From Nitrospirae bacterium MYbinv3 (lineage in GTDB: Bacteria; Nitrospirota; Thermodesulfovibrionia; Thermodesulfovibrionales; Magnetobacteriaceae), in assembly GCA_002753395.1 (NCBI GenBank), contig PEAB01000008.1, positions 25,843-71,578 on the forward strand: 45,736 nucleotides of DNA. Direction: 5' to 3'. Below the pieces are notes generated by a model that saw nothing but the letters and a program-made list of their open reading frames with translations, was not told the DNA's origin and ran no database searches. The translations under genes were made by a program, and so were the position numbers. This document shows positions 1 to 28,835 of this stretch, piece after piece. Every line of letters begins with the position of its first letter. Within the stretch, counting starts at the first letter, position 1.

Positions 1-173
1 GAAACAAGGGAACAAGTTCCCTTGTGGGAGGGTCTAAGGGAGGGCAAAGCCCTCCTTTTTTCATCTTCACAACCTTAAGTCAACAACATTATCCCTAACC
101 CTCCCACAAGGGGGCCAGTCCCCTTGTGGGAGGGTGTTAAGTTTACTGTCACCACTACTTGTGCAGGACTACC
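1..173 (-). repeat. MITE-like element, partial copy at window edge
   Basis: This is the reverse complement of the left half of the element seen whole at 5983-6262 and 32002-32289. It ends with the shared terminal sequence GGTAGTCCTGCACAAGTAG (read on the minus strand) and continues past the window start. It contains the GC-rich internal module with nested hairpins. Its outer border falls on the last base of the fdhA stop codon, so the element abuts the gene exactly. Confidence 0.75.
39..61 (+). terminator. Terminator-like hairpin inside the repeat
   Basis: GGAGGGC, a three-base loop AAA, GCCCTCC, then six T residues. This has the form of a rho-independent terminator for plus-strand transcription entering from the left, facing the minus-strand fdh operon. 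The same hairpin recurs in the other copies of the element. Confidence 0.55.
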
Positions 174-2920
174 TAAAGTTTATCTATCCTGACTGCGCAG
201 GACTTGTACTCTGGCGTACCAGCGATGGAGTCGCGGTAGCCCGATGTCAATAAGTTTGAAAGGGCATCATCGTAGTGAAAAGCTAAAAACACGTTACCTG
301 CCTGTGACCGCTCAGTTACGTTTACTTTGACATTTATCTGTCCTCGACGTGATGACACCCTGACCATTTCACCGTTAGCTATGTTCAACTTCTTTGCGTC
401 GGCAAGGTTTATCTCTATGAGTTCCTCAGGGGCCAGCTCCATGATACCTCTGACTCGTCTTGTCATAGAACCGTTGTTATAGTGTTCTAATCTCCGGCCT
501 GTGATTAGGACATATGGATACTCTGCATCTGGGATCTCGCCAGAGCCTATGTGTTCCAGTGATACAAACAAAGCCTTTCCACCGGGGCGGTTGAACTGCT
601 GCTCATAAAGCGTAGTGGTGCCAGGATGGTCTTTGGTAGGACATGGCCATTGTATCCCTTGTTTCTCAATCCGCTCGTAGCTTATGCCGCCGTAGTTGGG
701 GGTTAGGCTTGCTATCTCATCCATGATCTGAGATGGATGGGAGTATTTCATCTCGTATCCCATTCTCGTTGAGATCTCTTGGAGAACCTGCCACTCGGCC
801 TTACCGCAAAGGGGTTCAATGGCCTTTCTGATCCTCTGAACCCTGCGCTCGCCGTTTGTAAACGTACCGTCCTTTTCAGCAAAAGAGGCACCGGGCAGAA
901 TGACGTCGGCAAAGCGGGTTGTATGGGTGTGAAACAAGTCGCAGACTACGAAGAACTCAAGGGCGTCGAATGCCTTCCATATGTGATTAAGGTTTGCATC
1001 GGTCTGGGCCGTATCTGCCCCCATGACAAATAGTCCCTTAAACGTCCCTTCAACGGCCTTATCAAACATCTCCACGGACTTAAGACCAGTCGTAGTTGGA
1101 AACGCTACACCCCATGCCCGTTCAAACTTCTCCCTGACCTCGGGTTTTGACACATACTGGTATCCTGTACATACTGCTGGAGAAGGTCCCATGTCAGAGG
1201 CGCCCTGGACGTTGTTCTGTCCCCTCAGCGCCATTATGCCCGTTGACGGTCTGCCAAGGTGTCCACATGCAAGGGCAAGGTTGGCTATGGCCATGGCATT
1301 TTCAGTACCCGTGCGATGCTCGGTGACCCCAAGACCGTAAAGGATCATGGCCTTGTCAGCCTTGGCATAGAGTCTTGCTGCTTTTTCAAGCCTGTCTATC
1401 GAGACACCTGTAATCTTTTCCGTGTATTCTGGTGTGTATTTCTTGACGGCCTCCTTAAGATCATCGAATCCCTCGGTGCGGCTTCCTATAAACTCGTTGT
1501 TCTGAAGTCCCTCTTTCAGTATGATGTGGATAAGACCGTTGAGTAGCGCGATGTTTGAACCGGGTTTCAAGTTGAGCCAAACATCGGAGAATTTCACAAG
1601 GTCTATCCTTCTGGGGTCGCCTACGATGATCCTGGCGCCGTTTCTAATAGCGTTATTAACGTGAAGCGACACTATGGGGTGTCCTTCAGTGGTATTTGAA
1701 CCAAAGATAAACAGTACATCTGCATCCTTAATCTGCTCCAAGGAATTACTTGCTGCCCCTGCTCCCAATGAGGTGGCCAGACCGGCCACAGTTGGGGCAT
1801 GTCAGACACGGGCACAGTTGTCCACATTATTTGTGCCAAGCGCCGCCCGTACCCATTTTGCAAGCAGGTAGTTCTCCTCATTCGTACACCGTGAGGATGA
1901 AAACCCGCCTACGGAATCGTTACCGTATTTAGCCTTTAGTTCTGCAAACTTAGATGCTACAAGGTCAAGTGCCTCATCCCACTCTGCCTCTCTGAACACG
2001 GCCATTGGGTTTTTCAGCACCTCCGGGGAGGTATCATCAACACCCTCACGGCGTATGAGTGGTTTGGTAAGTCTGTCAGGATGCTGTATAAAGTCGTATC
2101 CAAAGCGCCCCTTTACGCAGAGGTTTCCACGGTTGACGGGGGCCTCGTAGTCGGATGTGACCTTGACAATCTTTCCGTTATTGACGTTGAGGTAGAAGTT
2201 GCAGCCTGTACCACAGTATGTACAGGTTGTACGCACGCGGTCGACGCTTCCAACCCTGCCCTTGCCCATGGCCTGTTTCTCGGTGAGCGCCGCGTCGGGG
2301 CAGGTCGATACACACTGGCCACAGAACACGCATATATCTGGAGTGAGGGGCTTGCTAAAGGCCGTGTCCGGTTTGGAGTAAAACCCCCTGCCGGTCATAT
2401 CTATCGTGCCCTTCATCACCACGTTCTGACAGATGTTGACGCAGCGGCTGCACAACACACATTTATTGGGATCGTAGGAGATGAATGGATTGTCATCCTT
2501 TTTAGGCAGGTTCCACATCTCACCATAGTACTTATCGTATCGGACGCCATACCTGTAGACAAGCTCCTGAAGTGCGCACGAGCCAGCCTTATCGCAGAAC
2601 ATACAGTCGTTGGGGTGATTAGACAACAGCAGCTCCAGCACTGTCTTTCTCAGTCTAGTGATTCTGTCGCTCTCGGTCGTCACCTCCATCCCTTCTCTGA
2701 TCGGGGTTGTACAAGATGACAGTGGCCGCACCTGCCCTTTGATCTCCACTATACAGAGCCTGCAGCCGCCATAAGCCTCCAAACGCTCGTCGTAACACAG
2801 CGTTGGTACATATATACCGTTTTCACGGCATACCTGCAAAACCGTCTTACCGCTTTCAGAGGTTACTGCCTTACCATTTATCGTGAGTGTTATTGTATCT
2901 TCCATAATTGCTGTTGTCAT
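173..2920 (-). CDS. fdhA: Selenocysteine-containing NAD-linked formate dehydrogenase, catalytic subunit
   Basis: Molybdenum or tungsten bis-PGD formate dehydrogenase that oxidises formate to CO2. Two open frames, 1802-2920 and 173-1801, form one gene of 915 residues joined by an in-frame TGA at 1804-1802 (residue 373). The context CARV-Sec-HAPTVAGL matches the active site of E. coli FdhF (CARV-Sec-HGPSVAGL). Domains in order: plant-type 2Fe-2S (Cys 42, 53, 56, 70); His-Cys3 4Fe-4S (His 102, Cys 106, 109, 115); two 4Fe-4S clusters (Cys 154-164 and 197-207); the cofactor-proximal 4Fe-4S cluster starting CTYCGTGC (233-240); the molybdopterin oxidoreductase domain; the dinucleotide-binding domain. 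The iron-sulfur-rich N-terminus is that of cytosolic complexes working with NuoE/NuoF-like partners, encoded just upstream. The start has a Shine-Dalgarno AAGGAGAT. No Tat signal is visible, so a cytoplasmic location is likely. The stop codon is at the border of a MITE. Confidence 0.95.
1764..1804 (-). promoter_or_regulatory. Bacterial SECIS element and selenocysteine UGA codon
   Basis: Read on the minus strand, UGA (1804-1802) is followed after a short gap by CCCAA (1796-1792), then GUGGCC-GGUCU-GGCCAC (1789-1773), then UUGGG (1768-1764). The upper stem is a perfect 6-bp helix, and its GGUCU loop is the same as the SelB-binding loop of E. coli fdhF. CCCAA and UUGGG close the lower helix. This is strong evidence that the UGA is decoded as selenocysteine and is not a nonsense mutation. 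Confidence 0.93.
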
Positions 2921-2949: not shown

Positions 2950-4734
2950 TCAACGTTTGTCAACCGCGTTGAACTTACACACGTCATAACATGAGTTGCA
3001 CTTTATACACAGACTCTGGTCAATATAGTGAGTTTTTTTCTTCTCACCAGTAATAGCCTTTACCGGACATACCCTGGCGCACATCGTGCAACCTGTACAG
3101 GTTGCCTCGTTGATGGTGTATGTCAGCAGTGCCTTGCATACTCCTGCAGGACAACGCTTCTCTGTGATGTGAGCGACGTACTCGTCTCTAAAATACCTTA
3201 GGGTGCTGAGGATGGGGTTTGGTGCTGTCTGACCTAATCCGCACAGGCTTGAGTCTATGACGTCAACTGACAGGTTTTCAAGCAGTTCCAGGTCATTGGC
3301 CTTGCCCTTGCCCTCGGTTATACGCGTGAGGATCTCTAAGAGCCTCTTTGTACCCACTCGGCATGGTGTACACTTGCCACAGGATTCGGCCTGTGTAAAT
3401 TCAAGGAAGTACTTCGCTATGTTGACCATGCAGTCATCCTCATCCATCACGACCATACCGCCAGAGCCCATGATGGAACCAACCTTGGCCAGCGACTCGT
3501 AATCCAGATGTGTGTCCAAAAGGCTCTCCGGTATACATCCACCGGATGGCCCGCCGGTTTGTACGGCCTTAAACCGTCTGTCCTTCTCTATACCACCGCC
3601 TATGCCATAGATGACATCGCGCAGTGGGATGCCCATTGGCACCTCTATGAGACCGGAGTTCTTTATCTTTCCAGTGAGGGCAAACACCTTTGTCCCCTTG
3701 CTCTTTTCTGTCCCAAGGGAGGCAAACCACTCAGCCCCTCGTCTGATTATGTATGTAACATTTGCTAGTGTCTCAACGTTGTTGATGACCGTGGGCTTAC
3801 CAAACAATCCCTTTTGTGCTGGAAACGGGGGCTTGCTCCTTGGCATACCCCTTTTACCCTCTATGGAGGCTATCAGCGCCGTCTCCTCACCGCAGATAAA
3901 GGCCCCGGCTCCAAGCTTGACCTTTATATCAAACTTAACCCCGTTGTCAAAGATGTTGTCCCCAAGGAAGCCCTTTTGGCGCGCCTGTTTTAGTGCCAGT
4001 TCCAGTCTCTGTACAGCCAGCGGATACTCCGCCCTTATGTAGACATAGCCCTTGGATGCCCCAATGGCATAGGCTGCTATGATCATCCCCTCTATGACGA
4101 CGTGTGGGTTACCCTCTACGACGGATCTGTCCATAAAGGCGCCTGGGTCGCCCTCATCGGCGTTACATATGATGTACTTCTGATCGGCCTGTTCATTGGC
4201 TCCGAACTCCCATTTAAGACCTGTGGGAAAGCCGGCCCCGCCCCGTCCCCTCAGACCTGACCTCTTTATGGTGTCGATGGTGTCTCCTGGCGATAGTGAG
4301 GTCAGTACCTTTCTGGCCGCCTCATAGCCGCCAACCTTTAGGTAGGCCTCTATGTCTTCGGGGTCAATCAGTCCGCACTCTGAGAGAACCACCTTCACCT
4401 GTTTGCCTTCAAAGTTGTGGTAGTCTTCACCGGCTGCAAAGTCCTCAACGGGTTGCCCGTCTATGATGTGCTCGTTCACTATGCGGTGGACTCTATCCAG
4501 AGTTACCTGTTCATAGGTTGTTTTTACACCGTCTATTGAGACATCCACAAGAACGTCTCTTGCACAGAACCCCCTGCATCCTACCCTGTGGAGATCGCAT
4601 TGTTTCTTGGAATGCAGTTGTGCCTCTATCCCTACCCCGGCTAATTCGGTAGATAATTTATCCATGACCTCTTGGGCTCCGGCTGCCAGACCCCCCGTGC
4701 CCATACACACGCTTATACTGATCTGTCTACTCAT
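2950..4734 (-). CDS. NuoF-like NADH-binding subunit of the formate dehydrogenase complex
   Basis: Flavin and NAD(H)-binding electron-transfer subunit, 594 residues. The N-terminal ~100 residues form a thioredoxin-like 2Fe-2S domain (Cys 10, 46, 53, 57). A NuoF core follows, with the glycine-rich FMN/NADH segment GRGGAGFPTGLKW, the NADEGDPGAFMD motif, an SLBB region and the 4Fe-4S motif ESCGKCTPCRVG. The C-terminus is a two-cluster ferredoxin domain (two CxxCxxCxxxCP-type motifs). This architecture is known from HndC, HydB and soluble formate dehydrogenase beta subunits, not from canonical complex I NuoF. Next to fdhA it should pass electrons between formate oxidation and NAD(P), perhaps with ferredoxin. 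It starts 8 bp inside the nuoE-like gene with a GAGGG ribosome site. The gene-level role is secure; the exact acceptor is not. Confidence 0.9.
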   Translation of the reverse strand: MSRQISISVCMGTGGLAAGAQEVMDKLSTELAGVGIEAQLHSKKQCDLHRVGCRGFCARDVLVDVSIDGVKTTYEQVTLDRVHRIVNEHIIDGQPVEDFAAGEDYHNFEGKQVKVVLSECGLIDPEDIEAYLKVGGYEAARKVLTSLSPGDTIDTIKRSGLRGRGGAGFPTGLKWEFGANEQADQKYIICNADEGDPGAFMDRSVVEGNPHVVIEGMIIAAYAIGASKGYVYIRAEYPLAVQRLELALKQARQKGFLGDNIFDNGVKFDIKVKLGAGAFICGEETALIASIEGKRGMPRSKPPFPAQKGLFGKPTVINNVETLANVTYIIRRGAEWFASLGTEKSKGTKVFALTGKIKNSGLIEVPMGIPLRDVIYGIGGGIEKDRRFKAVQTGGPSGGCIPESLLDTHLDYESLAKVGSIMGSGGMVVMDEDDCMVNIAKYFLEFTQAESCGKCTPCRVGTKRLLEILTRITEGKGKANDLELLENLSVDVIDSSLCGLGQTAPNPILSTLRYFRDEYVAHITEKRCPAGVCKALLTYTINEATCTGCTMCARVCPVKAITGEKKKTHYIDQSLCIKCNSCYDVCKFNAVDKR

Positions 4735-5194
4735 TTGTACCCTCTTTCATGGACTTTACCATCCTTAATAAATGGTTTATGTTGGCCTTACCGTGTACCT
4801 TTTTGTTGACTATGGCTACGGGGGCAATGCTGCAGGCCCCCACGCAGGCCACCTTTTCGATGGTTATCAAGCCATCAGAGGTGGTGTTATCTGATGTGGT
4901 CAGGCCGGTTTCTTGTTGGAGTCTTGCAATCAGTTTCTCCGATCCCTTGACGTGACATGCAGTGCCGCAGCAGAGGGTAAAGATGTTTTTCCCACGCGGT
5001 TTCAGGTGAAATTGAGCATAAAAGGTGGCAATCCCATAAAACTTGCTAACAGGGATTTCTAGTGAACGCGATACATATTGGACTGCCTCCTGAGGGATGT
5101 AGTTAAACTCATCCTGCAGCTTCTGTAATATGGAGACAAGGTTGCCCTCGTTGTGTAGATAATCGTCTATTATACTATCTAGTTTTTCTGTCAT
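4727..5194 (-). CDS. NuoE-like 2Fe-2S subunit of the formate dehydrogenase complex
   Basis: Thioredoxin-like [2Fe-2S] protein of 155 residues, the usual size for the NuoE/HndA family. The cluster ligands are visible as LCCGTACHVKG (Cys-x4-Cys) and, further on, VACVGACSIAP (Cys-x3-Cys). The N-terminal helical region contains the typical YIPQEAVQYVSR-type segment. It partners the NuoF-like protein encoded next. Its ATG overlaps the purE stop codon (ATGA, 5194-5191) and its end overlaps the following gene by 8 bp, so all four genes are probably translationally coupled. Confidence 0.92.
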   Translation of the reverse strand: MTEKLDSIIDDYLHNEGNLVSILQKLQDEFNYIPQEAVQYVSRSLEIPVSKFYGIATFYAQFHLKPRGKNIFTLCCGTACHVKGSEKLIARLQQETGLTTSDNTTSDGLITIEKVACVGACSIAPVAIVNKKVHGKANINHLLRMVKSMKEGTNE

Positions 5195-5709
5195 TTTTCC
5201 ATTTCCTCACTTTTTTCAAGTAGTATATTCTTGGTCTTGAGTCTGTAGGCATCCAGACCTTCTTTTATTTCAGGGTACTTGATAGACAGTATAGATGCGG
5301 CCAAGAATGCCCCGTTGGCTGCACCGTTTATAGCAACTGTAGCCACAGGTATCCCCGATGGCATCTGAACTGTTGACAAGAGGGCGTCTATGCCATTTAG
5401 TTCCCCTGACTTTATTGGCACTCCGACTACTGGGAGCGTTGTATTAGCGGCTATGGCTCCTGCAAGGTGGGCAGCCATCCCAGCTCCGGCAATGATGACC
5501 TCAATCCCTCTATCTCTGGCTGTTTTTGCGTACTCCGCTGTCAACTCTGGCAGTCTGTGTGCAGAACTTACCTTCAACTCGTACCTGATCCCTAGGTCAA
5601 TTAACACCTCGGTTGCCTTCGACATCACACTCATATCGCTGGCACTGCCCATCACAATCCCTATAACGGCCTTATTTGCCGCAACAGTGCGCTCAAGCCC
5701 TTCGTCCAT
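5191..5709 (-). CDS. purE: N5-carboxyaminoimidazole ribonucleotide mutase
   Basis: PurE catalyses interconversion of N5-CAIR and CAIR in purine synthesis. The 172-residue product has the class I signature: GSASDMSVM near the N-terminus, SAHRLPE, AGAGMAAHLAGAIAA, and a GIPVATVAINGAANGAFLA segment. The start at 5709 has a GGAGGT ribosome site five bases upstream. It is the first gene of the operon with the formate dehydrogenase and overlaps the next gene by 4 bp. No purK lies nearby in this window. Confidence 0.95.
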   Translation of the reverse strand: MDEGLERTVAANKAVIGIVMGSASDMSVMSKATEVLIDLGIRYELKVSSAHRLPELTAEYAKTARDRGIEVIIAGAGMAAHLAGAIAANTTLPVVGVPIKSGELNGIDALLSTVQMPSGIPVATVAINGAANGAFLAASILSIKYPEIKEGLDAYRLKTKNILLEKSEEMEK

Positions 5710-5982: not shown

Positions 5983-6262
5983 GGTAGTCCTGCACAAGTA
6001 GTGGTGACAGTAAACTTAACACCCTCCCCTAACCCCTAATGCTGTTGACTTAAAGGATGTAAAGATGCAAAAAAATAGAGAGGGCTTTGCCCTCCCTAGA
6101 CCCTCCCACAAGGGGATTCGTCCCCTTGACCCCGTAAATGTCAGGCGTGGCTGCTAAAGATGTTACTTGCTATACATCAATAATGCTTAAGTCAACAGCA
6201 TTACCCCTAACCCCTCCCATCAAGGGAGGGGGATTGAATATCACTACCTCTGCAGGACTACC
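5983..6262 (+). mobile_element. MITE-like element, full copy
   Basis: A ~280-bp element bounded by imperfect terminal inverted repeats. The left end is GGTAGTCCTGCACAAGTAG and the right end is the complement of GGTAGTCCTGCAGAGGTAG. The subterminal arms ATGCTGTTGACTTAA and TTAAGTCAACAGCAT are also inverted. The centre holds the GC-rich module (GAGGGC/GCCCTC hairpin and AAGGGG-N-CCCCTT hairpin). It encodes no protein. A second full copy at 32002-32289 is close to identical in both ends. No convincing target-site duplication is visible. Confidence 0.75.
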
Positions 6263-23955: not shown

Positions 23956-24015
23956 ATGTTTAGAGGAAGTAATGACCGAAAAGAGAGGAGGTCTTTCCTG
24001 TATTACAGAAAGTGA
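23956..24015 (+). CDS. 19-codon leader ORF coupled to the large secreted protein
   Basis: ATG 23956 follows a strong Shine-Dalgarno GAGGAGG (23945-23951). The frame reads MFRGSNDRKERRSFLYYRK and its TGA (24013-24015) overlaps the GTG start of the next gene as GTGA. The peptide is strongly basic. It could be a coupling leader. Alternatively, a single-base indel has split one gene: joined to the following frame it would give a natural n-region for the signal peptide. Confidence 0.45.
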   Translation: MFRGSNDRKERRSFLYYRK

Positions 24016-27000
24016 GTGTAAGGGCGCTGCTTACCCTGATGCTGGCTGCCGTGATTGGAATCGTGTGTCTTGGCAGCTTTGCTGCTAACGCCTTTGCGGA
24101 AGACTATGTCTTTATAGGCAAGTGGGGGAGTTATGGCAGCGGTGATGGTCAATTAGATCGGCCATACGGGGTCGCTGTTGATGCCTCTGGATATGTCTAT
24201 GTTGCCGATATGAATAACAACCGTATTCAGAAGTTTAGTTCAAGTGGTGCTTTTATAGCCAAATGGGGGAGCCAAGGCAACGCTGATGGTCAATTCAATG
24301 GACCATACGGGGTCGCTGTTGATGCCTCTGGATATGTCTATGTTGCCGATATGAATAACAACCGTATTCAGAAGTTTAGTTCAAGTGGTGCTTTTATAGC
24401 CAAATGGGGGAGTCAAGGCAACGGCGATGGTCAATTCAATGGGCCATACGGGGTTGCTGTTGATACCTCTGGAAACATCTATGTTACCGATTGGAAAAAC
24501 AACCGCATCCAGAAGTTTAGCTCAAGTGGTGCTTTTATAACCAAGTGGGGGAGTTATGGTAGCGGTGATGGTCAATTCAATGGGCCATACGGGGTCGTTG
24601 TAGATACCTCCGGAAACGTCTATGTTGTCGATCTTTATAACAACCGCATCCAGAAATTTAACTCAAGTGGTGCCTTTATAGCCAAATGGGGTAGCCAAGG
24701 CAACGCTGATAGCCAATTCAATAATCCAATAGAAGCAGCTGTTGATGTCTCTGGAAACGTCTATGTTACCGATTGGAATAACAACCGCATCCAGAAATTT
24801 AACTCAAATGGTACATTTACAACCAAGTGGGGTAGTCTTGGTAACGGTGATGGTCAATTCAAGTACCCAGTAGGGGTCGCTGTTGATGCCACTGGAAACG
24901 TCTATGTTGTCGATTACGGTAACTACCGCGTCCAGAAGTTTGCAAAGGATGGAGGGGGGTCTAAAATAGTTAACCCTGGCAATAACCACACCTATCAAAG
25001 AATTGATAAACAAATGACATGGCCTGACGCTAAGGTTTATTGTGAAAATTTGGGCGGATATTTAGCAACCGTAACCTCAGATAGTGAGAACAAATTTCTG
25101 ATCGATAAGTTGTTACCTGCAGATTTTTTTGATAGTACGAATAATTCTTGTTGGCTTGGGGCAACCGATGTAGAGACTGAAGGCACTTGGAAATGGGTAA
25201 CTGGTGAAAAATGGGATTTTACATCGTGGGCTTTCGGTGAGCCTAATAATGAAGGAGGTAATGAAAATTGTCTACTTTATTATAGTAAATACGGCCATAT
25301 ATATAATTTGTGGAATGATGGTAGCTGTTCAAACGCCCACCTACTAATTTGCGAATGGAATCCAACACCCACCCAAGTGAAGCTTACGGTGACAAAACAG
25401 GGAACTGCCTTTGACACAGTTACCACCTCGACTGGTCTTATAAGCTGGAACGACAATACCGTCGTTGCCTCCTATGGCAGCGGGGGGTGTACTGGACCTG
25501 GCTGCACGTTAACGCAAACAGGTACAGCATACTATAACAGCGGAGCCAACGTTACACTAACGGCAACGGAAGTCTCAGGTTCAAAATTCACTGGCTGGGG
25601 TGGGGACTGTACCACTGCCTCGGTGAATCCAACCTGCACGTTAGAAAGGATGTCGGCGAACAAGAACATAACGGCGACGTTTACGGCTTCATTGCAACCT
25701 TCACCACAGATAGTTGGCACGGTGCATTCCAAATTGACCCCACAAAGCGAATGGACTCCAAGCAAAGCAACGGTAACATTAAAAAGTGTTGATGGAACTT
25801 CATCACAGTCTTATACTACGAAAGACGATGGATATTACACCTTCAATGGCCTATCTACAGGTACTTATAATATTTTAGCACGTTCCAATGAAAAAAGTGC
25901 TATGGAAACTGTAACAATTAACCCCACAACTGGTATGGGTAGTACCATTTATACTAACACCATACAAACACGGGATTTAAGAATGACAAATAATGCTAAA
26001 CCGTTAATCTATGTGCCTGGTGTAATGGGTACAAGTGATATGGATTCACAGGTGTTCGGTTGGTCTGTAAACACACTAAAAGTCAAACTTCCCCCGGACT
26101 TATGTACCTCTACCGATAACCTACAAGTATTTGATCCAGTCGTACGGATTGAACTGGCATACTTAGTTGATCCATTTTATTGTATAGCGACAGAGTTAGT
26201 CGGGACTAAGACATATTGTAGAGTCAAACCAGTAGATTTTGAAAAATTCAAAGAATTCTTTGAGAATAATGGATTTAAGGTTTACCTAGCTAAATACGAT
26301 TGGCGACTTTCCTTGGATGATACAAAAAGTTGCCCAGGTGGTAAAAAACCGTGGGAGAATTACCTTAAACCAGTGATTGATAACGCTAAGAAAGAAACAG
26401 GCTATCAAAAGGTATATGTTGTTGGTCATAGCATGGGTGGTCTTCTAACACGAACATACATTCAAGACAGTCAGTATAGTAACCGTAACGATATTGAAAA
26501 GTTTGTGATGTTTGGAACCCCTAATGAAGGTTCGGCAAACGCTTATTATTCATGGGAAGGTGGGGACCCACTGAGCGCAGACATCTTAACTAAATTTACC
26601 CTTCCAGATAGAGTAAAACTGAAATTTACTAATATGTATTACGACTCAACGATAGCTAATTGTGATAGTATGTCAAAATCGTGTAAGACCTACAGCGAAA
26701 GAAAGAAATTTATCAGAGAGAATATTAAGGGGCTTGGAAATTTATTTCCGACTTACCCATTTTTAGAGGTATGGAAAGATAATGTGAATGAACCACCTGT
26801 TACACCAGTGCCTACTAATTCCCCAGCCTATAACATTTTCTTGAATAAGCTTAATGGTGACACTAATAAAAGCAGAATGAAAGCTAATTGCAGCTCAGAC
26901 AATGTTTGTGTTCCAACAAAATTATTCATGACAAACGATCAAGAAACCATAAATTATATACGTGTTAAACTTGGTTATCTCGGTTGTGTGGATTATGAGG

Positions 27001-28835
27001 ATGGATGTCCAACATCTATTATACAAACAGATGGTACTGAGCCTGGTACTGTATTACCCCATATCGTTAAGATTTTCCCAGAAACAGCAACGATATATAA
27101 TGGTGACGGCACAGTAGTTCCTGACAGAGCAAAAGAGACTTTTAATGATATTAACGGTAAGCCGTCTATTGATTATGAAGAGGGCAGCTTTACTTCACAT
27201 GGCACAATGCCTTCATCTGAACTCCTGCAAAAGAAGATTCTTACCTATTTAAACCCAAATAGCAATGCTTCTTCTATGCAGTCAGTAACAAAATACTCTA
27301 AAAGGGACACAGCGCCTACGACAACGCTTAGTTTTTATCTAACAGGTGGTGTCCAGCCTTACATGACAGACCCTCAAAAGAGAACGGAGGGAGTGAATTT
27401 CACTACAAGTCAGGTAGAGCAGAATATTCCAGATACCACGTTGAAATTACTTGGTAACTCATCATCCATTTTCATAAACAACCCCGTCAATGGAACCTAC
27501 ACCATTGACCTGAAAGGCAATGCCGGATTGTTTACTGTAAACGCGGTATCTTTCAACCTTGCAAACGGATTAGGAGCTGAGACAACCAAAAATGGCTTTT
27601 ATAAAAACGGTATCTTTAACCTATGGCTTACCCTTGATACCAACTCAGGGGTATTGACCATCACCAGCAAGGTTGCGCCACCCACTGATGTAAAGGCGCA
27701 AAACAATGGTGGAAAGACACGCTTGACATGGACACCATCTGCGACGGCCAGTGTCATAGGATATAACATCTATGGAAAGACCTTTGATCAAGATGGCTTT
27801 ACCATACTCGCAAGCACCGGCAAGGACACTACGTCATTTGATACAGGTAAGGACTGGGCATCAAGTGATACGGCAACCGTATGGTATTACGTGGTAACAG
27901 CATTTGACTCTGATGTTACAGAAAGCCTGTGGGATACAACTGTGTCAAACACAAACCCGATAAAGGCCGATTTCAATGCCTCAAAGACAACGGTTGCGGT
28001 CAATACCCCCGTGTCGTTTTCGGACCTCTCAACGGGTAATATCACATCATGGCAATGGGACTTTGAAAACGATGGGGTAATAGACAGCACATCACAAAAC
28101 CCGACACACACATACACATTTCCTGGTACCTATTCCGTGAACCTGTATGTAAAAGACAGCGACGGCAAGACAGATTATACCTCCAAAGGTGCATATATCA
28201 CGGTTACGTCAACTACGTCAAAAGCACTCGGTAAGAAAGTAAACCTCGACGGCGATGGCAAGAGCGATATCCTGTGGCGAGATGCTACCACTGGCGACGT
28301 AGTTGCATGGTTGATGGACGGGACTGTGATAAAAAGCGGCGGATATCTGGCTAAAGGCGTACCGAACAACTGGCACATAGTAGCCATCGGTGATCTCAAC
28401 GGCGACGGCAAGAGCGATATCCTGTGGCAAGATACCACCACTGGCGACGTCGCTGCATGGTTGATGGACGGTACCAAGATAATCAGCGGCGGATATCTAG
28501 CTAAAGGCATACCAAACAATTGGCACATAGTAGCTATAGGTGACCTTGACGGCGATGGAAAGAGCGATCTCTTGTGGCGAGATGCCACCACTGGCGACGT
28601 CGCTGCATGGTTGATGGATGGTACCAAGATAATCAGCGGCGGATATCTGGCTAAAGGCGTACCGAACAACTGGCAGATAGTAGCTATCGGCGATCTCAAT
28701 GGGGACGGCAAGAGCGATCTTGTGTGGCAGAACACCACCACTGGCGACGTCGCTGCATGGTTGATAGACGGGACTGTGATAAAAAGCGGCGGATATCTGG
28801 CTAAAGGCGTACCGAACAACTGGCAGATTCAATAA
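24012..28835 (+). CDS. Large secreted mosaic protein: NHL repeats, C-type lectin, lipase, PKD and FG-GAP-like repeats
   Basis: 1607 residues with an N-terminal signal peptide ending ANAFAED. Domains in order: six to seven NHL beta-propeller repeats (~30-315, unit containing GVAVDASGYVYVADMNNNRI); a C-type lectin-like domain (~322-452, with CWLGATD, GEPNN and LWNDGSC); a divergent InlB-type repeat (~455-555); a carboxypeptidase-regulatory-like domain (~565-655); an LCAT/PGAP1-like alpha/beta hydrolase (~665-1085) with GHSMGG (Ser807), GDGTVVPD (Asp1032) and SHG (His1063) as a plausible triad; an Fn3-like segment; a PKD domain (~1315-1400, WQWDFENDG); and four FG-GAP/VCBS-like repeats (DGKSDILW) to the end. 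The GTG start lacks its own close ribosome site (see the leader ORF). The last repeat stops mid-unit. Likely an extracellular or surface lipase/esterase that binds polymers; the substrate is unknown. Confidence 0.85.
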   Translation: MSVRALLTLMLAAVIGIVCLGSFAANAFAEDYVFIGKWGSYGSGDGQLDRPYGVAVDASGYVYVADMNNNRIQKFSSSGAFIAKWGSQGNADGQFNGPYGVAVDASGYVYVADMNNNRIQKFSSSGAFIAKWGSQGNGDGQFNGPYGVAVDTSGNIYVTDWKNNRIQKFSSSGAFITKWGSYGSGDGQFNGPYGVVVDTSGNVYVVDLYNNRIQKFNSSGAFIAKWGSQGNADSQFNNPIEAAVDVSGNVYVTDWNNNRIQKFNSNGTFTTKWGSLGNGDGQFKYPVGVAVDATGNVYVVDYGNYRVQKFAKDGGGSKIVNPGNNHTYQRIDKQMTWPDAKVYCENLGGYLATVTSDSENKFLIDKLLPADFFDSTNNSCWLGATDVETEGTWKWVTGEKWDFTSWAFGEPNNEGGNENCLLYYSKYGHIYNLWNDGSCSNAHLLICEWNPTPTQVKLTVTKQGTAFDTVTTSTGLISWNDNTVVASYGSGGCTGPGCTLTQTGTAYYNSGANVTLTATEVSGSKFTGWGGDCTTASVNPTCTLERMSANKNITATFTASLQPSPQIVGTVHSKLTPQSEWTPSKATVTLKSVDGTSSQSYTTKDDGYYTFNGLSTGTYNILARSNEKSAMETVTINPTTGMGSTIYTNTIQTRDLRMTNNAKPLIYVPGVMGTSDMDSQVFGWSVNTLKVKLPPDLCTSTDNLQVFDPVVRIELAYLVDPFYCIATELVGTKTYCRVKPVDFEKFKEFFENNGFKVYLAKYDWRLSLDDTKSCPGGKKPWENYLKPVIDNAKKETGYQKVYVVGHSMGGLLTRTYIQDSQYSNRNDIEKFVMFGTPNEGSANAYYSWEGGDPLSADILTKFTLPDRVKLKFTNMYYDSTIANCDSMSKSCKTYSERKKFIRENIKGLGNLFPTYPFLEVWKDNVNEPPVTPVPTNSPAYNIFLNKLNGDTNKSRMKANCSSDNVCVPTKLFMTNDQETINYIRVKLGYLGCVDYEDGCPTSIIQTDGTEPGTVLPHIVKIFPETATIYNGDGTVVPDRAKETFNDINGKPSIDYEEGSFTSHGTMPSSELLQKKILTYLNPNSNASSMQSVTKYSKRDTAPTTTLSFYLTGGVQPYMTDPQKRTEGVNFTTSQVEQNIPDTTLKLLGNSSSIFINNPVNGTYTIDLKGNAGLFTVNAVSFNLANGLGAETTKNGFYKNGIFNLWLTLDTNSGVLTITSKVAPPTDVKAQNNGGKTRLTWTPSATASVIGYNIYGKTFDQDGFTILASTGKDTTSFDTGKDWASSDTATVWYYVVTAFDSDVTESLWDTTVSNTNPIKADFNASKTTVAVNTPVSFSDLSTGNITSWQWDFENDGVIDSTSQNPTHTYTFPGTYSVNLYVKDSDGKTDYTSKGAYITVTSTTSKALGKKVNLDGDGKSDILWRDATTGDVVAWLMDGTVIKSGGYLAKGVPNNWHIVAIGDLNGDGKSDILWQDTTTGDVAAWLMDGTKIISGGYLAKGIPNNWHIVAIGDLDGDGKSDLLWRDATTGDVAAWLMDGTKIISGGYLAKGVPNNWQIVAIGDLNGDGKSDLVWQNTTTGDVAAWLIDGTVIKSGGYLAKGVPNNWQIQ

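Follow-up and report, generated by a model that had tools for sequence, protein, structure and literature searches.

The minus strand of the window, by which we mean the whole 45,736-nt stretch of Nitrospirae bacterium MYbinv3 DNA analysed here, carries two open reading frames (ORFs), and the question raised by this locus is whether they are two genes or one gene containing a UGA codon that is read as selenocysteine (Sec), and what kind of formate dehydrogenase (Fdh) is then encoded. ORF calling placed them at 173-1789 and 1802-2920, exactly the coordinates given in an earlier sequence-only reading of this DNA. Both belong to a single 915-codon frame interrupted by one TGA, at codon 373 (window 1804-1802), and the flanking residues are NVDNCARV-U-HAPTVAGLATSLGAG. 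The features concerned are as follows:

173..2920, minus strand: fdhA, predicted 915-residue Sec-containing formate dehydrogenase alpha subunit
1802..1804, minus strand: in-frame UGA, predicted Sec373, in the motif CARV-U-HAPTVAGL, as identified by frame translation and by UGA in homologues
1773..1789, minus strand: upper stem and loop of the putative SECIS hairpin, GUGGCC-GGUCU-GGCCAC, within the coding sequence

The profile TIGR01591 (formate dehydrogenase alpha) matched residues 231-912 without a break across the UGA, scoring 858 bits against a curated cut-off of 666.25, and codon 373 was aligned with the Cys of FdsA. Pfam analysis revealed Fer2_4, NADH-G_4Fe-4S_3 and Fer4 domains ([2Fe-2S] and [4Fe-4S]) in residues 8-213, ahead of the molybdopterin domains, the catalytic part predicted to hold Mo/W-bis-PGD covering residues ~228-912.

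With fdhF of E. coli K-12 used as the yardstick for the register, the loop of the hairpin was found to begin at +21 nt relative to the U of the UGA, and E. coli fdhF carries an identical loop in that position. Folding of the 71-nt region gave a z-score of -0.71 relative to shuffled sequences, which is not significant, and when the peptide was recoded with randomly chosen synonymous codons, GGUCU fell at +21 in 24% of trials and the loop together with a 6-bp stem arose in 2.7%. Searching the whole window with Rfam at gathering thresholds detected two tRNAs and no SECIS-type match. Taken from this single sequence alone, the hairpin is thus modest to weak evidence, and in view of the fold z-score and the 2.7% chance of loop and stem, comparative data were used instead.

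The comparison set consisted of the active sites of all loci fetched, 83 of which were distinct (75 with UGA and 8 with Cys). In the UGA sites, the loop at +21 was GGUCU in 69, AGUCU in 5 and GGGCU in 1, and each of the six stem pairs could be formed in 73-75 of the 75. The third pair was G-C in 66 sites, U-A in 6, C-G in 2 and A-U in 1, and in the fourth and fifth pairs, too, both sides were seen to change. Codons +6 to +8 (Ala-Gly-Leu) were nearly fixed as GCC GGU CUG, whereas neighbouring codons used many synonyms, the freedom of the wobble base collapsing only around codons +5 to +9. In contrast, among the Cys homologues GGUCU was kept in one of eight, the innermost pair was formed in four, and codons +5 to +7 were free to vary. 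This covarying stem provides, as judged from the aligned relatives, decisive support that the hairpin is more than a product of chance. In the bacterial SECIS model, a hairpin directly 3′ of the UGA has an upper stem of 4-16 bp and an apical loop of 3-9 nt with G in its first two positions (PMC13188914); the fdhA hairpin, with its 6-bp stem, 5-nt GGUCU loop and covariation, agrees with this model. The proposal of a SECIS hairpin with an exact GGUCU loop, made earlier from the letters of this window, is therefore upheld at 1789-1773, in the register of E. coli fdhF and with the loop shared by 69 of the 75 UGA homologues. Likewise, the TGA that had been assigned to an FdhF-type active site corresponds to UGA at 75 distinct homologous sites. 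It was also noticed that in one of the loci encoding the Cys form of the enzyme (L062, L075, L108, L117-L120 and L122), namely L062, a SECIS-like stem is still intact around a GGCCU loop, as if Sec had recently been replaced by Cys.

The host genome (3.71 Mb, a draft of 175 contigs, 96.6% complete) was then searched by family for the Sec machinery, the whole absence of which had been named as the finding that would speak against a selenoprotein. All four genes implied by the sequence-only reading were found: selA (597.6 bits), selB (378.8 bits), selC encoding a 98-nt tRNA-Sec with the anticodon UCA (75.5 bits), and selD (315.8 bits). At the N-terminal Sec/Cys site of selD itself (locus L018), in AAG-U-GSKLGP, there is an in-frame TGA (codon 1531-1533) with a hairpin of the GGGUCC-GGC-GGACCU type after it, and host SelD is therefore probably a selenoprotein too.

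Named relatives were mostly metagenome-assembled genomes of Nitrospirae/Thermodesulfovibrionia, with some Desulfobulbaceae/Desulfocapsaceae, and included Candidatus Magnetomicrobium cryptolimnococcus (78% identity) along with a Candidatus Magnetobacteriaceae bacterium; the host is thus very probably a member of Nitrospirota close to that family. Among the 60 related genomes searched, selA scored above the cut-off in 54, and nearly all of the best Fdh matches had one TGA; that of genome G058 had no stop and is presumably a Cys form. In a genome of the same genus (G001, 92% complete), a close Fdh and selA were not found, and neither SelB nor tRNA-Sec exceeded the cut-offs, which fits a loss of the entire trait; lacking Fdh, selA, selB and selC together, this genome serves as a small natural control tying the trait to fdhA. 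A genome of the same order (G048, 99% complete) had a UGA-containing Fdh and tRNA-Sec; no selA and no selB over the cut-off were found in it, and these were taken as a gap or a divergent gene.

That the TGA arose through faulty sequencing or assembly, or through a true nonsense mutation in a Cys-type gene, making the locus an artefact or a pseudogene, would need only one base change (TGC/TGT to TGA) in a draft of 175 contigs, but this is already refuted by the same TGA and covarying SECIS in independent genomes, besides the frame being otherwise intact over 915 codons and the full Sec machinery being present, and we consider it exceedingly improbable. Mechanical ORF calling does yield two ORFs, which would correspond to a 372-residue Fe-S protein and a 538-residue molybdopterin protein starting at GTG 1789. 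However, this internal GTG is the first triplet of the SECIS stem and no Shine-Dalgarno sequence was found before it (ATG 2920 has AAAGGAGATATAAC just ahead on the 5′ side), and the split would cut the molybdopterin domain (Pfam PF00384, residues 283-718) at the catalytic residue. Two separate genes are thus very unlikely. The claim of a single 915-residue selenoprotein, in turn, is borne out by the continuous TIGR01591 match and by UGA being kept in homologues down to 47-50% identity. Based on these comparisons, it is very highly probable that 173-2920 is one gene with UGA encoding Sec; the host almost certainly reads the fdhA UGA as Sec, so that the two apparent genes are one. For the formate dehydrogenase family, it is already well known that genes split by UGA are single genes.

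Directly upstream of fdhA, three further genes on the same strand overlap one another, purE with hydC by 4 nt and hydC with hydB by 8 nt, and a repeat lies just 3′ of fdhA:

2950..4734, minus strand: HydB/HylB-type NuoF-like flavoprotein of 594 aa with an FMN/NADH domain, SLBB and C-terminal 2x[4Fe-4S], as assigned from profile and structure-chain matches
4727..5194, minus strand: HydC/HylC/NuoE-type thioredoxin-like [2Fe-2S] subunit of 155 aa, as assigned from profile matches
5191..5709, minus strand: purE, 172 aa, as assigned from the ORF and profile matches
98..135, no strand assigned: perfect inverted repeat of 16 bp around a 6-nt loop, one copy of a palindrome dispersed in the genome

The purE gene heads the fdh operon and is probably co-transcribed with hydC-hydB-fdhA without being part of the enzyme; among the loci fetched, only the closest relative (L052) also has purE adjoining fdh. 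The inverted repeat may act as a terminator. Its palindromic word, CCCTCCCACAAGGG, occurs at window 19-32, 99-112, 121-134 and 6101-6114, and 107 times in the 3.7-Mb genome versus once for the word read backwards; it resembles an intergenic repeat family of the REP or MITE type. Elsewhere in the window, 24012-28835 (plus strand) encodes a protein of 1607 residues in which NHL repeats, a C-type lectin domain, a hydrolase segment resembling LCAT/lipase, PKD domains and FG-GAP repeats were recognised; it is probably a large protein that is secreted or located at the surface.

When compared with solved chains, the HydB-like protein scored 770-809 bits with 9bov_B, NfnB 9n5u, StnB 8oh5 and HydB 7q4v, versus 377 bits with FdsB 6tg9. 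An FdsB/NuoF assignment for 2950-4734 was rejected, since the solved bifurcating HydB-type chains score far higher than FdsB. The C-terminal 4Fe-4S domain of this protein was found by Pfam, and such a domain is a hallmark of the StnB/HydB bifurcating module (PMC10482914). Three gene features of bifurcating Fdh were thus found: 1) a HydB/HylB-type protein with C-terminal 2[4Fe-4S], 2) a HydC homologue with fdh, and 3) HylA clusters, here fused to the N-terminus of FdhA with no separate subunit. Describing FdhA as a subunit with a NuoG/HylA-like N-terminal extension, belonging to a HydBC-type complex, refines the earlier claim and does not contradict it.

The catalytic subunit, for its part, has as its best solved relatives the FdsA-type chains 9wxb_B and 6tg9_A, with Cys in place of Sec, and many homologues lack adjacent HydBC, as would be expected if the Sec enzyme were a simple NAD+-linked, non-bifurcating Fdh of the FdsABG type. 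We regard this as rather unlikely, for the NuoF-like partner is HydB/StnB-like, has the extra C-terminal 2x[4Fe-4S] and is far nearer to bifurcating enzymes than to FdsB. Only about half of the homologous loci have HydB and HydC beside fdhA; neither was in the flank of 51 of the 110 loci, some flanks being short, and loci with a 5-kb flank, for example L053 (78% identity), lack both. This makes the partner of fdhA exchangeable and leaves bifurcation less secure than Sec.

The fdh cluster of Clostridium aceticum (CACET_c32690 FdhA plus HydB/HydC) has been predicted to encode an electron-bifurcating Sec formate dehydrogenase (PMC7911925), and, as here, its Sec FdhA has a HylA-like N-terminal extension and adjoins the HydB and HydC genes with no separate hylA (PMC7911925); its operon has hydB and hydD duplicated, whereas here one hydC-hydB-fdhA set follows purE, in Nitrospirota. 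HylABC-FdhF2 of Gottschalkia (Clostridium) acidurici bifurcates electrons to NAD+ and ferredoxin (Wang et al. 2013, reviewed in PMC5861303); it shares with the present locus a NuoF-like HylB, HylC, a Sec catalytic subunit and the proposed reaction, but its HylA is a separate polypeptide rather than clusters fused to FdhA. The NAD+-dependent FdsABG (PDB 6tg9/6tga) has an FdsA-like catalytic architecture like that of FdhA (full-length match, 765 bits), with Cys aligned where FdhA has Sec373; the flavoprotein at 2950-4734 is much closer to HydB than to FdsB. E. coli FdhF (formate dehydrogenase H), which works with a formate-hydrogen lyase, has Sec at the same site, the same SECIS loop and register and a homologous catalytic domain (1aa6, 603 bits), but at ~715 residues it lacks the N-terminal Fe-S extension of FdhA.

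The upstream genes being of HydC/HylC and HydB/HylB type, with the best solved relatives bifurcating and not FdsB, it is fairly probable that the complex is a ferredoxin- and NAD-linked electron-bifurcating Fdh of the kind found in C. aceticum and G. acidurici; a reversible ferredoxin-/NAD-linked enzyme is favoured because C. aceticum has the same arrangement and the G. acidurici complex bifurcates. In our model, in which Sec insertion itself, assembly of the complex, bifurcation, the choice of metal and the direction of the reaction in the cell are all inferred, SelB with GTP and Sec-tRNA(Sec) would bind the GGUCU-loop hairpin when the ribosome reaches the UGA at 1804-1802, and Sec would be inserted at residue 373 instead of termination. 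The FdhA product would then assemble with the HydC- and HydB-like products of the genes immediately upstream, and its most likely function is the reversible conversion of CO2 and formate at a Mo- or W-bis-PGD/Sec site. Electrons would travel along the N-terminal Fe-S clusters to HydB and its FMN, where they would be exchanged with NAD(H) and ferredoxin by bifurcation. Formate would probably be supplied to the Wood-Ljungdahl pathway; the host genome has an acetyl-CoA synthase gene (acsB-type CdhC), which suggests service to that pathway.

FdhA and SelD are the commonest bacterial selenoproteins, one of the two being present in every selenoprotein-containing organism surveyed, and FdhA occurs in 89% of Sec users (PMC1794560). 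The finding was thus to be expected and is no surprise. It is mainly a matter of annotation: if the UGA is not read as Sec, the enzyme is reported as two fragments and the formate/CO2 metabolism of the organism is missed. Beyond annotation, we lean slightly towards the view that a Sec-dependent bifurcating Fdh with fused HylA clusters drives CO2 reduction in Nitrospirota near the magnetotactic Candidatus Magnetomicrobium, and that the whole selenium trait may have been gained or lost within one genus.
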